Origin: an uncultured Pelagibacteraceae bacterium
GTDB taxonomy: Bacteria; Pseudomonadota; Alphaproteobacteria; Pelagibacterales; Pelagibacteraceae
Direction: 5' to 3'
NCBI GenBank assembly: GCA_902624195.1
Contig: CACNWV010000007.1
Coordinates: 1-59,691 of the forward strand
DNA: 59,691 nucleotides
Made by a program: the position numbers and the translations under genes. Under the pieces are notes generated by a model. It ran no database searches and was not told the DNA's origin. It was given only the letters and a program-made list of their open reading frames with translations. Shown here piece after piece: positions 10,489 to 15,050 of this stretch. Within the stretch, counting starts at the first letter, position 1; each line of letters starts with the position of its first letter.

Positions 10489-10556
10489 ATCTCTATTAAC
10501 TCCATTTTACTTGAGTTATCAACAGAATATACGACTTTTAAGTGCGTCAATAATGC

Positions 10557-10575
10557 AAATGATAATCATTATCAT
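10557..10575. promoter_or_regulatory. Fur-type box 1 upstream of the iron operon
   Basis: ATGATAATCATTATCAT at 10559-10575 is a perfect 8-1-8 palindrome containing the classical Fur core TGATAATNATTATCA. It is centred on base 10567, 52 bases before the chosen start of the iron-binding protein. A second copy follows 27 bases downstream. Confidence 0.85.
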
Positions 10576-10583
10576 ATTACTGT

Positions 10584-10601
10584 AAATGATAATCATTATC
10601 A
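10584..10601. promoter_or_regulatory. Fur-type box 2 upstream of the iron operon
   Basis: TGATAATCATTATCA at 10587-10601 is a second perfect 7-1-7 Fur-type palindrome. The 18 bases AAATGATAATCATTATCA at 10584-10601 repeat 10557-10574 exactly, at a 27-base spacing. Its centre is 25 bases from the start codon, so a bound repressor would block transcription or early elongation. Confidence 0.85.
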
Positions 10602-10618
10602 ACATAATGGGGAAAATA

Positions 10619-11638
10619 ATGAAAAAAACAATACTAATCAGCTATTTATTTTTAATAGCGTTCGCAAGTAGTTTATTTGCTAACGAAGTAAATATATTTA
10701 GCGCAAGGCATTACGACTCTGATGTTCAACTTTACGAAAAATTTACTGCTAAAACAGGAATTAAAGTAAATGTGGTTTCAGGAAAATCTGGTGCTTTGGA
10801 AAAAAGAATAATCGAAGAGGGTGCAGATAGTAAAGCTGACCTTTACATTACGGCAGATGCTGGAAGACTAGGAGCATTTGAAGCAAATCTACAAGGTGGA
10901 CTTACTAGTTCAACTATTAAGTCAGCTGTTCCAAGTAACTTCAGAACATCCAAATGGACTGGTATAGCGAAGAGAGCAAGAATCGTTTACTTTGCTCCAG
11001 AAAGAGTAAGTGGCGCTGAGTTATCTGGTTTAACTTATGAGAGCTTAGCTGATCCAAAATGGAAAGGCAGATTGGTAATAAGAGCTTCAAACAATATTTA
11101 CAATCAATCATTAGTAGCATCTTTAATCAAAAATAATGGTAAAGGTAAAATTGCAGAATGGTCAAAAGGTATGGTTGCTAATATGGCGAGATCTCCAAAG
11201 GGTAACGATAGAGCCCAAATACTTGCAGTTGCAGCAGGAGAAGCAGATATAGCTGTAGCTAATACTTATTATTTAGCACTAATGTTATCTGGGAAAAAAG
11301 GTGCAGAACAACAAGCAGCAGCTAAAAAAGTAAAACCATTCTTTCCAAATCAAGATGGAAGAGGAACCCACATGAACATTAGCGGCGCAGGACTTGTTAA
11401 AGGAGCACCGAACAAAGCTAATGCAATCAAATTGGTAGAGTTCTTATTGAGCGAGGAAGCCCAAAATCATATTGTTAATAATACTTTCGAGTATCCTATG
11501 ATTAAAGGCGTATCTCCGCATCCACTTGTAGTAAATATGGGATTGGATTTTAAACAAGATCTTAAAACTAAAGTTGTTAATTACGGAAAAAGACAAGCAG
11601 ATGCTTTGGCAGTAATGACAGCAGCAGGTTGGAAGTAG
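10619..11638 (+). CDS. Ferric iron ABC transporter, periplasmic binding protein (FutA/AfuA type)
   Basis: Periplasmic ferric iron receptor, 339 residues. Residues 1-21 (MKKTILISYLFLIAFASSLFA) form a signal peptide. The mature start VNIFSARHYDSD and the later ANTYYLALM match the FutA/IdiA group, where tyrosines coordinate iron. LYITADAGRLGAF is another group hallmark. I chose the ATG at 10619, which has a GGGGA site and leads straight into the signal peptide. The in-frame ATG at 10586 lies inside Fur box 2 and is unlikely. Tandem Fur boxes just upstream indicate iron repression. Confidence 0.92.
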   Translation: MKKTILISYLFLIAFASSLFANEVNIFSARHYDSDVQLYEKFTAKTGIKVNVVSGKSGALEKRIIEEGADSKADLYITADAGRLGAFEANLQGGLTSSTIKSAVPSNFRTSKWTGIAKRARIVYFAPERVSGAELSGLTYESLADPKWKGRLVIRASNNIYNQSLVASLIKNNGKGKIAEWSKGMVANMARSPKGNDRAQILAVAAGEADIAVANTYYLALMLSGKKGAEQQAAAKKVKPFFPNQDGRGTHMNISGAGLVKGAPNKANAIKLVEFLLSEEAQNHIVNNTFEYPMIKGVSPHPLVVNMGLDFKQDLKTKVVNYGKRQADALAVMTAAGWK

Positions 11639-11648
11639 TTTGAAATAT

Positions 11649-11822
11649 ATGAGGCGATCAACAAAAAAAGAAATTAACTTAAATAAGTTAAAAACTGGTT
11701 GTTCGCCTTGTATGTCAGAAGCAAAAATAATGGAGCAAAAAATCTCTAATAGAAAGGTTTCTGAAATTAAGATCGAAGAGGTAAAATCAATTATTTCTTC
11801 AATGTTTGAAAAAAAAAATTAA
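11649..11822 (+). CDS. Small CxxC protein in the iron operon
   Basis: A 57-residue basic protein I do not recognise, starting 10 bases after the iron-binding protein stop. Its only cysteines form GCSPCMSEA (residues 17-25) in an otherwise Lys/Glu-rich, probably helical chain. There is no signal peptide or membrane segment, so it should be cytoplasmic. An in-frame TTG at 11640, one base after the preceding stop, could start a 60-residue version. Position suggests a redox or metal-handling helper for imported iron, but this is inference. The frame could also be chance, though it fits tightly and codon use looks normal. Confidence 0.52.
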   Translation: MRRSTKKEINLNKLKTGCSPCMSEAKIMEQKISNRKVSEIKIEEVKSIISSMFEKKN

Positions 11823-11837
11823 AAGTTTGACGTCAAT

Positions 11838-11894
11838 TTCTCTGGCTTTAAATGCTAGCTAAAAATCTACACTCAAGCCGCTTTAGCCAGAGAA
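11838..11894 (+). other. Long-range inverted repeat between the CxxC gene and flavodoxin
   Basis: TTCTCTGGCT (11838-11847) and AGCCAGAGAA (11885-11894) can pair as a perfect 10-bp stem around a 37-base loop that contains GCTAGC. The repeat lies in the 86-base gap before the flavodoxin ATG at 11909. No T-run follows, so it does not look like a terminator. It may be an mRNA structure that separates expression of the binding protein from the downstream genes. Confidence 0.5.
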
Positions 11895-11908
11895 TTAACC
11901 TTGTTTAA

Positions 11909-12349
11909 ATGATATTAGATATAATATATGCTACTCAATCAGGAAACGCGGAAGAAGTCGCTCAAAATCTTAATCTATTGGCAAGATCAAAAGGATTTAT
12001 TGTAAATATTAATGAAATGAATTTTCATAATATCAATTCATTTAGGCAATTGAGAAATGTGGCAATAGTAACTTCAACTTATGGTGAAGGAGAAGTGCCG
12101 GAAATGGGAATAGAATTCTGGAATGAATTAAAATCCTCGAAAACTGACATACCTAATTTAAGATATGGATTAATTGCATTAGGAGATAAATCTCATGAGA
12201 TATTTTGTGGAGCAGGTAGAGCTATTTCAAAGAAATTAGAAGAGCTTAATTGTAAAAAAGTAATTAAAAATCTAGAATGCGACGGCGACACAGAAGGAAC
12301 ACAAGAGTGGAGTATTAAATTTTTAGAAAATTTAAAGAAATTTAATTAA
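11909..12349 (+). CDS. Flavodoxin (MioC/CysJ-type FMN domain) in the iron operon
   Basis: A 146-residue FMN-binding electron carrier, cytoplasmic. The phosphate loop is YATQSGNAEEVAQ near the N-terminus. STYGEGEVPEMGIEFW is the second FMN loop, and ALGDKSHEIFCGAGR the third. These loops resemble the free-standing MioC proteins and the flavodoxin domain of sulfite reductase more than long-chain flavodoxin. It lies between the ferric binding protein and its permease, 2 bases from the latter. It may replace ferredoxin when iron is short, or supply electrons for reducing imported Fe(III); the sequence cannot decide between these. Confidence 0.85.
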   Translation: MILDIIYATQSGNAEEVAQNLNLLARSKGFIVNINEMNFHNINSFRQLRNVAIVTSTYGEGEVPEMGIEFWNELKSSKTDIPNLRYGLIALGDKSHEIFCGAGRAISKKLEELNCKKVIKNLECDGDTEGTQEWSIKFLENLKKFN

Positions 12350-12350
12350 A

Positions 12351-13967
12351 ATGACAAAATATAACGTTTGGTTTTTTAGCTCACTATTAGTGGCAATTAT
12401 AGTAGCATTACCTATAGTAACAGTTTTTTTTAGTTTTTTTAATGAAACAAGTGAATATTATAGATTATTAAGTGATACTTTTCTTTTTGACTATATTTTC
12501 AATTCAATAATAATATTATTTTTTGTCATTTTAATTACTTTTTTTGTAGGTGTTTCCACAGCGTATTTTATCTCATTTTACGAATTTCCTTTTTCTAATT
12601 TTTTTAGCTGGGCATTAATTTTAGCATTTGCTGTACCAGGGTATATTTATGCATTTTCAATAATTGCCTTTTTTGAGAACTATGGCACAGCCTTTTCAAT
12701 ATTAACTTTTTTTTTGGGAGAGGGTAATCACAATACTATTATACCTAAGCCTGACGGAATTTTTGGAGCAATATTAGCAATATCTTTTTCACTTTTTCCA
12801 TATGTTTATGTTTTGACTAGAGCCTCTTTCCATTATCAGTCTTATAATTATTTAGAAGTTGGGAAAAATTTAGGTCTTACTTCAAAAGAAACATTTTTTA
12901 AAATAATTTTACCTTACGCAAGACCAGCTATAATTGCAGGACTTGCATTAGTGTCAATGGAATGTCTGTCAGATTTTGGTACAGTTTCATTTTTTAGTGT
13001 TAACACATTAACAACGGGGATATACAATTCTTGGTTATCTTTTGATGATTTAAATACAGCAAATCAAATATCTTTTATTTTGTTACTTTTTATACTCATT
13101 TTATTCTCTATTGAAATTTATTCGAGAAGAGGTGCAAGATATCATCAACCAGGAAGAGGATTTAAACCTATTACTAAAATAAAAATATCTGGGAAAAAAA
13201 GCATTATACCAGTAGCTATTTGTTCAATAATTTTTTTTATTAGCTTTTTGTTTCCTCTCTCGCAAATGATTTACTGGAGTATTAAATTTCCCAAATATTT
13301 TCAAGATTTAAATATTATAGAAATTAATTTAAACACTTTAATTCTAGTAATTTTGGCGAGCGTATTTATAGTTATGTTTTCATTATTAATAAATTATGGT
13401 AGCAGAATTTCTAAAAGTAAAATTTTAAATTATCTTACTAACTTTTCTATTTCAGGTTATGCAATACCAGGTGTAATACTTGCAGTAGCTTTTATAACTT
13501 TTTTCTCTAACTTTACTGAATTTTTATTCGAAAATTTCAATCTAAAAATTAACAAAGGAATTTTTATAGGATCAATTTTAGGATTAATTTTAGCTTATTT
13601 TATAAGATTTTTCTCTTTGTCATTTAATGGCATAAAATCAAGTTATGAAAAAATTAATAATTCGATTGATGAAAGCGCATATCTTCTTGGATATTCAAAA
13701 ATTAAAACTTTTTTGAAAATTCACGTACCATACTTAAAAACAAACATCACTTTAATTATGCTATTGATTTCTTTGGAAGTTATAAAAGAATTACCAATAA
13801 CTTTAATTTTAAGACCGTTTAATTTTGAAACTTTTGCTACACAAGTATATATTTATGCCTCCCAAGATCTATTAGAAGCTGCTGCCTTACCTTCTCTTTT
13901 TCTAATATTTTGGTCCTCATTACTAGTTCTAGCATCATCTAAATATATACTTTCTAAAAAAAACTAA
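12351..13967 (+). CDS. Ferric iron ABC transporter permease (FbpB/SfuB type)
   Basis: Inner-membrane permease of the iron importer, 538 residues. It is a fusion of two homologous permease halves with about twelve membrane helices in total. Each half carries a coupling loop: VGKNLGLTSKETFFKIILP in the first and ESAYLLGYSKIKTFLKIHVP in the second. This fused form is normal for FbpB/SfuB. It starts 2 bases after the flavodoxin stop and precedes the ATPase gene by 12 bases. Confidence 0.92.
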   Translation: MTKYNVWFFSSLLVAIIVALPIVTVFFSFFNETSEYYRLLSDTFLFDYIFNSIIILFFVILITFFVGVSTAYFISFYEFPFSNFFSWALILAFAVPGYIYAFSIIAFFENYGTAFSILTFFLGEGNHNTIIPKPDGIFGAILAISFSLFPYVYVLTRASFHYQSYNYLEVGKNLGLTSKETFFKIILPYARPAIIAGLALVSMECLSDFGTVSFFSVNTLTTGIYNSWLSFDDLNTANQISFILLLFILILFSIEIYSRRGARYHQPGRGFKPITKIKISGKKSIIPVAICSIIFFISFLFPLSQMIYWSIKFPKYFQDLNIIEINLNTLILVILASVFIVMFSLLINYGSRISKSKILNYLTNFSISGYAIPGVILAVAFITFFSNFTEFLFENFNLKINKGIFIGSILGLILAYFIRFFSLSFNGIKSSYEKINNSIDESAYLLGYSKIKTFLKIHVPYLKTNITLIMLLISLEVIKELPITLILRPFNFETFATQVYIYASQDLLEAAALPSLFLIFWSSLLVLASSKYILSKKN

Positions 13968-13979
13968 TATACTTAAGAA

Positions 13980-15050
13980 ATGTCAGAGATTTTTTTTGAA
14001 ATTCAAAGTGGTAACTTTACCGCAAGTGAAAAAAATAAAGTAAATAATGTAAACCTTACTATAAAAAATCAAGGTGAAATTATATCTCTGCTTGGCCCCT
14101 CTGGAATTGGGAAGACTACAATTTTAAGAACAATTGCAGGATTACAAAAACTTAGTAAAGGAAAAATTAAACTTAGAAATCGAACTCTATCTTCAGATGA
14201 AATTCATGTAGAGCCAGAACAAAGAAACATTGCTCTCTCTTTTCAAGATAATTCTCTTTTTCCAAATTATACAGTTATTGATAATATTAATTTTGGAAAA
14301 AAAAGATCTAATGGTCAAGGAATATCAATTGATGCTCAAGAGATAATCAATATATTAAGGATTGAGCCAATATTAAAAAAATTTCCTCATCAAATTAGTG
14401 CTGGAGAAGCTCAAAGAGTTTCACTAGCCAGGTCTTTAATGTCTAAGCCAGATTTATTATTATTAGATGAGCCATTTTCTAATATAGACCAAAGTTTAAA
14501 AGAAGAAATACAAGTAACAGTTAAAAAGCTTTTAAAAAGAATTAACTTAACCACAATAATCGTAACGCATGACTCGTATGAGGCTTTCTCATTGGCAGAT
14601 AAATGTGGAATCATCTTAAATCAAGAACTAAAACAATATGATACCCCCTATAATGTTCATCATGAACCTAACTCGATAGATGTAGCTAATTTTTTAAATA
14701 AAGGTATTTTTATAGATGTTCAAGTAATAGATAGTGAGTGTGCAGTTCATAGATTAAAACATGACGAATTAGGTGAGATTAGAGGAAAACTGTCTAATAA
14801 TTTTAGATCTGGATCAAAGGTTAAACTATTATTACAACCTGAGGACTTAATTCATGATGATCAAAGCAAATTAAAGTTAACAGTTGTCGATAGAAAATTC
14901 AAAGGGACAAATTTCATTTATACTTTAAAAACTAAAAAAGGTAAGCATTTACAAGTATTTGTTCATTCTCACCATATACACCAACACGAAAACTCAGAAC
15001 AATTTGGTATTAAGTCACCGATTTATATTGACCATTTAGTATGTTTTTAA
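13980..15050 (+). CDS. Ferric iron ABC transporter ATP-binding protein (FbpC type)
   Basis: Cytoplasmic ATPase driving ferric iron import, 356 residues. Walker A is GPSGIGKTT. The signature reads ISAGE, a permitted variant of LSGGQ, followed by AQRVSLARSL. Walker B is LLLLDEP, and the H-loop VTHDSYEAF keeps its histidine. The C-terminal ~120 residues form the regulatory extension seen in FbpC, with several histidines near the end (HSHHIHQHE) that are unusual and might bind metal. It is the last gene of the iron operon, with tRNA-Arg 19 bases beyond the stop. Confidence 0.92.
   Translation: MSEIFFEIQSGNFTASEKNKVNNVNLTIKNQGEIISLLGPSGIGKTTILRTIAGLQKLSKGKIKLRNRTLSSDEIHVEPEQRNIALSFQDNSLFPNYTVIDNINFGKKRSNGQGISIDAQEIINILRIEPILKKFPHQISAGEAQRVSLARSLMSKPDLLLLDEPFSNIDQSLKEEIQVTVKKLLKRINLTTIIVTHDSYEAFSLADKCGIILNQELKQYDTPYNVHHEPNSIDVANFLNKGIFIDVQVIDSECAVHRLKHDELGEIRGKLSNNFRSGSKVKLLLQPEDLIHDDQSKLKLTVVDRKFKGTNFIYTLKTKKGKHLQVFVHSHHIHQHENSEQFGIKSPIYIDHLVCF

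Follow-up and report, generated by a model that had tools for sequence, protein, structure and literature searches.

A CxxC microprotein gene within the ferric ABC importer operon of Pelagibacteraceae

The ferric importer operon and its microprotein gene

The window, by which we mean the whole stretch of 59,691 nucleotides analysed here, carries an operon for a ferric-type ABC importer, and a short frame encoding a microprotein lies between the gene of the binding protein and that of the permease. The genes run in the order binding protein, microprotein, stem-loop, flavodoxin, permease and ATPase:

10555–10573 (unstranded): Fur-box-like palindrome 1, 17 of 19 matches to the Fur consensus
10582–10600 (unstranded): Fur-box-like palindrome 2, 17 of 19 matches to the Fur consensus
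10619–11638 (+): periplasmic ferric-type binding protein, SfuC/FbpA type (Pfam SBP_bac_6/1/8/11)
11649–11822 (+): CxxC microprotein of 57 aa (frame, homologue searches, alignments, dN/dS)
11826–11900 (+): conserved stem-loop RNA element, model R1, just 3′ of the microprotein stop (covariation)
11909–12349 (+): flavodoxin, an occasional neighbour (Flavodoxin_1)
12351–13967 (+): ferric-type ABC transporter permease, SfuB/FbpB type (BPD_transp_1)
13980–15050 (+): ABC ATPase with a His-rich C-terminus, SfuA/FbpC type (ABC_tran)

The two palindromes, both upstream of the binding protein, were the best two sites of the window in a plus-strand scan with the Fur consensus. As the start of the binding protein we chose an inner ATG ahead of a signal-like segment; the longest frame begins at 10586. 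Binding protein, permease and ATPase occur together, as judged by Pfam, and relatives keep the same order, which places the host operon among the Fbp/Sfu-type importers; the NCBIfam matches of the importer genes went to several ABC families, all below cut-off. The binding protein shares 72% identity with the HTCC1062 protein encoded at the sfuC position. In Ca. P. ubique under iron limitation, the transcripts of sfuC, sfuB and sfuA were up 16-, 10- and 5-fold (PMC2864753); as far as we have seen, published measurements of the iron response concern only the transporter genes of Ca. P. ubique and HTCC7211 (PMC2864753; PMC13271415).

The microprotein frame starts with an ATG at 11649, 10 nt after the stop of the binding protein, and ends with a TAA whose last nucleotide is 11822. 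Its translation is MRRSTKKEINLNKLKTGCSPCMSEAKIMEQKISNRKVSEIKIEEVKSIISSMFEKKN, with a computed pI of 9.8 and two cysteines, both within GCSPC, so that the description in the original prediction, a basic protein of 57 residues with a single GCSPC, was accurate. The same prediction placed the protein in the cytoplasm. This is probably correct, since we found no hydrophobic stretch in the family, the highest 19-residue Kyte-Doolittle mean among 132 sequences being 0.76.

Searching SAR11 iron operons for the GCSPC frame, as had been proposed, yielded 72 loci in named genomes. The scan used two peptide patterns, one of which contains GCSPC, so this set is partly chosen for the motif. The gene of the binding protein lies immediately upstream of the microprotein in all 72 loci, and a permease gene lies downstream in 71, the remaining locus stopping at a contig edge. 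Another 40 loci, taken from divergent members and other genera, all have both neighbours as well; in three of them, 0.74–0.79 kb precede the permease. The location originally given, between the iron-binding protein and flavodoxin, was therefore right on the side of the binding protein, but flavodoxin should be replaced by the permease: in only 8 of the 72 loci is the permease preceded by a flavodoxin gene, which there follows the RNA element or the microprotein. With this count we rejected a standing partnership with flavodoxin.

Two side observations concern individual loci. At L182 and L186 the microprotein frame is about 0.2 kb off the binding protein rather than adjoining it. On the contig of L072, parts of the binding-protein and permease genes occur in inverted form, and this contig is probably a chimera of assembly or amplification.

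Selection on the gene and conservation of its cysteines

The frame at 11649–11822 is a real gene under purifying selection, and the observation of a microprotein at this place is confirmed. For this analysis four damaged rows were removed from the 72 named loci, leaving 68 intact copies, with at least one row (L101) of the set coming from another genus. The median dN/dS was 0.16 (1843 usable pairs out of 2278) and the pooled pN/pS 0.25. Heterozygosity at codon positions 1, 2 and 3 was 0.14, 0.09 and 0.35, the third position being the most variable. Every intact copy starts with ATG, and every one has exactly two cysteines, arranged as CxxC and encoded by both TGT and TGC codons. Free variation of the cysteines, which would have spoken against the prediction, was thus not seen.

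The CxxC is retained in 70 of the 72 named loci, the two exceptions being broken frames, and in all 40 wider loci. A further copy, L175, encodes a truncated microprotein from which the first cysteine is gone. As far as we have seen in these sequences, the motif appears to fail only where the gene itself has failed. An alignment of 53 diverse microproteins, obtained from 64 rows by removing 11 that were incomplete or near-duplicates of others, has only three invariant columns, C18, C21 and R35.

To describe the family more broadly we used 132 sequences, which were pre-filtered for CxxC and hence do not test its conservation. In this set the claim of two cysteines only proved partly true: it applies to 83 sequences, but 48 have three cysteines and one has four. 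A third cysteine at CxxCxxxC spacing is found in 40 of the 132, in another genus and in some other relatives.

Distribution among genomes

A search with the single protein in 61 genomes gave some match at E up to 1 in 24 of them and a clear match in 19, of which 18 are intact and one (G036) is frameshifted. These 18 genomes, the one of the window included, belong to the same genus, and GCSPC is invariant among them. A profile built from the 18 sequences matched 223 of 397 Pelagibacteraceae genomes, 100 of the 140 good ones, and 6 of 14 genera; the number of genera is probably five, as two of the weakest matches, in G577 and G473, look spurious and L200 holds the only listed match of its genus. 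Both searches scored the whole protein or a profile. In a set of 26 matches, 23 were a CxxC frame near the binding protein, with only frames containing CxxC considered. The other three were the truncated copy at L175 and the two spurious-looking matches L199 and L200, which have no adjoining binding protein. With the profile of 53 sequences, matches were obtained in 108 of 197 genomes of the order, in 102 of the 149 good ones and in 2 of 10 genera.

Outside the family the matches did not rise clearly above chance. The sister family (24 genomes, single-protein search) gave two weak matches only, both in the same genome. In a sample of the class (385 genomes), four matches outside the family had E-values of 0.0025–0.01, about what chance gives for per-genome E-values, and the one other clear match, G267, is itself a family member. 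A sample of the phylum (299 genomes) gave three outside matches just below 0.01, again about the level of chance for per-genome E-values. All 72 genome_contigs loci with the microprotein are named Pelagibacteraceae, Pelagibacterales or Candidatus Pelagibacter. Judged from these searches, the microprotein is found so far only in Pelagibacteraceae. We also considered spread by viruses and rejected it, as 600 pattern matches in viral_contigs yielded no confirmed copy.

Losses and the strain HTCC1062

The binding protein was sought in 33 genomes that had given no microprotein match (23, and 10 of a further 12). In 16 of them it gave no match at the thresholds used, and the whole operon is perhaps missing or unassembled there. 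The remaining 17 genomes have the binding protein and lack the microprotein; the microprotein is therefore dispensable. At these 17 loci the genes of the binding protein and the permease lie close together, some with a stem-loop alone between them, and L203, L205 and L208 look like deletion remnants. Lineages without the microprotein apparently keep the transporter unchanged.

In one of these genomes, G466, the binding protein occupies 1180955–1181971 on the minus strand and the microprotein is absent. Since these coordinates adjoin the sfuC–SAR11_1239 spacer of HTCC1062, given as 1181972–1182071 in a table of PMC2704228, G466 is almost certainly HTCC1062. The iron-limitation study (PMC2864753) used HTCC1062, the strain being named in PMC13271415. 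The strain in which the iron response of the operon was recorded thus appears to lack the microprotein, and this absence may be the reason why the microprotein went unnoticed. G475, from the same genus as G466, has a frameshifted copy.

A stem-loop RNA element downstream of the microprotein

The outer stem of the element R1 covaries, and its inner loops and its 5′ TTTGACGTCAAT are conserved. Its alignment comprises 28 sequences, namely 27 of 43 unique spacers and one from L173, and 96.7% of the cells pair. Five of the 14 pairs change on both sides with pairing kept, all of them in the outer stem, compared with a mean of 2.3 in shuffled alignments (7 of 500 reach five) and 0–2 in slid versions; the two inner helices show no both-sided change. 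Of 151 genomes of the genus, 50 matched the R1 model; the match is strong in 49, each of which has a single strong copy. This search scored 32 candidates per genome under strict filters, so further copies could be missed. Of the strong copies, 46 start 4–12 nt past the end of a listed microprotein match, and the other three are in genomes absent from the list of 397, the two sets being different genome draws. Rfam gave nothing convincing at R1; its matches in the window were five tRNAs.

Among the spacers of the named genomes, 48 of 71 contain the R1 pattern, which means that many intact copies of the microprotein gene occur without R1. We read the stem-loops as a separate control, presumably acting on how the permease is translated or how stable the mRNA is.

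In the sister genus, the place of R1 before the permease is taken by stem-loops whose sequence is unrelated to it. Inspection by eye, without a control, also showed that in 8 of 29 folded spacers (L140, L145, L148, L154, L163, L165, L172 and L234) a TTACCC within the loop or close to it lies opposite a GGGTAA close to the start of the permease. From the sequences, this pairing is a possible start-site pseudoknot. One of the eight spacers is that of the HTCC1062 locus, where the microprotein is absent.

Predicted fold and family matches

Sequence searches of Pfam, NCBIfam and PDB with the window protein and 53 members gave no convincing family. A few members have weak matches to Fe-S families, and the most widely shared weak lead was the thioredoxin-like TIGR00412, matched weakly by 15 of the 53 members (best E 0.0014). 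Against TIGR00412 the window protein reaches 16.4 bits, the cut-off being 62. AlphaFold2 predicted helices at 19–32 and 42–53 for the window form (mean pLDDT 74.8, pTM 0.46) and at 21–35 and 44–53 for a three-cysteine form (mean pLDDT 65.8, pTM 0.34). Both models consist of two helices without strands, with the first cysteine immediately ahead of helix 1. They suggest, with moderate confidence at best, that the protein folds as a helical hairpin whose first helix begins at the CxxC, and not like a thioredoxin. A Foldseek search of PDB with the first model returned two uninformative hits at E 9.5. The Pfam matches of the 53 members at E up to 1 cover 18 families, with no thioredoxin or glutaredoxin family among them. 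We therefore rejected membership of a thioredoxin-like family, as neither Pfam nor the models support the TIGR00412 lead.

A possible thiolate accessory of the importer and its alternatives

Our best reading, which is tentative, is that the microprotein could serve the ferric ABC importer as an optional thiolate accessory in the cytosol, binding iron or a cluster there, probably in dimeric form. The cytosolic location follows from the lack of a hydrophobic segment. That it would be an optional accessory and not a core part follows from the transporter, in which no residue clearly tracks the presence of the microprotein: comparing the window and 94 permeases and 87 ATPases from loci with the microprotein to 16 loci without it, a test confounded by phylogeny, we found two weak columns among 267 conserved ones in the permease and none among 154 in the ATPase. 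Coevolution of the transporter with the microprotein was rejected on this basis. Metal binding itself is what we infer from the cysteines. The original prediction, whose interpretation is supported in part, had considered a dimer holding iron or a cluster, or a thiol switch. C18 and C21 are invariant and relatives have the additional cysteine of CxxCxxxC; these observations seem to suit a bound metal or cluster a little better than a plain thiol switch, although not decisively, and the third cysteine, not being conserved, appears to count against our reading.

In its more specific form, which is possible but doubtful, the protein would be a dimeric CxxC hairpin metallo-microprotein, specific to SAR11, that takes or senses iron at the inner mouth of the importer. 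Under our main reading, the microprotein would be made when Fur releases the operon and would stay in the cytosol, where two hairpins would pair and their four thiolates, or six with the third cysteine, would ligate Fe(II) or a small Fe-S cluster. The metal site of the paired hairpins would sit at the inner face of the importer, and the microprotein might accept newly imported iron and hand it on, or sense iron and tune the importer.

The main rival is a thiol-disulphide protein with a redox-active CxPC that reduces incoming Fe(III) or switches the importer or iron metabolism, which we consider rather unlikely. The second middle residue is proline in 113 of the 132 sequences, a CxPC which we take to resemble thioredoxin active sites, and in both models the CxxC is predicted at a helix N-terminus. 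The weak TIGR00412 matches in 15 of 53 members would likewise favour redox chemistry and speak against a metal-binding accessory. However, the middle residues vary, being ST, KT, DT, PA, PT, HA or VI in the rest of the family (e.g. CKTC, CSTC, CPAC, CVIC), a role as a redox pair leaves the third cysteine of many members unexplained, and neither the Pfam matches nor the predicted strandless helices point to a thioredoxin or glutaredoxin.

The invariance of the cysteines, with little else fixed, and the locked position in the operon would also suit a structural zinc protein or protein-protein adaptor, in which a dimer would ligate Zn through CxxC and the protein would act as a regulator of the importer or of some other partner. 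CxxCG, the usual context of zinc ribbons, was sought in the 132 family sequences and occurs in none, and the transporter residues described above, none of which clearly tracks the microprotein, also speak against such an adaptor; we regard it as improbable. We give a still smaller chance to a Fur-regulated basic RNA-binding protein that would work like Bacillus FbpB and target either iron-related mRNAs or the stem-loop within its own operon. Most members are indeed basic (median pI 9.8, n = 132), and a conserved RNA element lies directly 3′ of the gene in many genomes. But the pI is below 7 in 6 of the 132 sequences and below 8.5 in 11, so that the basic charge, judged by computed values, is not conserved, many intact copies lack R1, and HTCC1062 has a stem-loop and no microprotein. 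Both the varying charge and the patchy presence of the RNA element make an RNA-binding role less likely. Finally, a leader or spacer frame whose translation matters but not its product, coupling the binding protein to the permease, would agree with the short gaps or overlaps with neighbour genes in several genera but is scarcely credible given the dN/dS of 0.16 and the invariant cysteines.

Relation to known systems

Fbp/Fut/Sfu/Afu-type ferric ABC importers are encoded in the same kind of operon, with binding protein, permease, ATPase and Fur-like sites, and the SAR11 operon differs in having one more gene, that of the CxxC microprotein, after the binding protein and ahead of the permease. 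The original prediction knew of no such component in Fbp/Fut-type systems, and our family searches, as well as the papers listed for the operon and for SAR11 small proteins, showed none either. The importer itself is of a familiar type, and its microprotein accessory is new as far as our searches reach.

Several known proteins share some of its features. FeoA and FeoC are small cytosolic proteins encoded with the Feo Fe(II) importer, and FeoC carries cysteines. The microprotein is likewise small, probably cytosolic and encoded beside an iron transporter, but the transporter class is another, the host operon is not feo and there was no Pfam or PDB match. Bacillus FbpA, FbpB and FbpC are reportedly Fur-regulated small basic proteins. 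The microprotein resembles them in being small, mostly basic and probably under Fur, whereas its core is the CxxC and none of them appeared among the Pfam families matched by the 53 members at E up to 1. Bfd, the bacterioferritin-associated [2Fe-2S] ferredoxin, has about 60 aa, is iron-regulated and has four cysteines, with cysteines ahead of a helix. Size, presumed iron regulation and cysteines ahead of a helix are shared, but the microprotein has two to four cysteines (83, 48 and 1 of 132) and gave no Pfam or PDB match.

The three-cysteine form IDxNKSSKxCxxCxxxC resembles IDLNKCLGCQTCTVAC of the beta subunit of ethylbenzene dehydrogenase (2ivf chain B), a [4Fe-4S] ferredoxin-like segment, in a match that is not significant (E 0.19). 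The full CxxCxxCxxxC is absent: at best three of the four ligands are present (40 of 132), the first position is not cysteine and the third cysteine is often missing. With the MTH895/ArsE thioredoxin-like family (TIGR00412) the microprotein shares a CxxC followed by a helix and the weak matches already given, but its score lies far below the cut-off and the models are without strands.

SAR11 bacteria live at very low iron. The microprotein, present in 102 of the 149 good genomes sampled from the order, is a concrete candidate for the missing inner step of iron import, in which the cell takes over the iron delivered by Fbp/Sfu-type importers. If the more specific reading is true, it would be the first cytosolic partner dedicated to this class of transporter, in very abundant ocean bacteria, and a metallo-microprotein overlooked so far because the model strain lacks the gene. 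Work on HTCC1062 would miss it. The protein is small and easily made, and close relatives with and without the gene exist in nature.

A last observation concerns the ATPase. Its C-terminus, VHSHHIHQHE...DHLVCF (about 14960–15050), is near-identical in the window, in two loci with the microprotein and in 15 of 16 loci without it, the contig of the 16th ending early. This His-rich segment might sense metal and so feed back on the importer.
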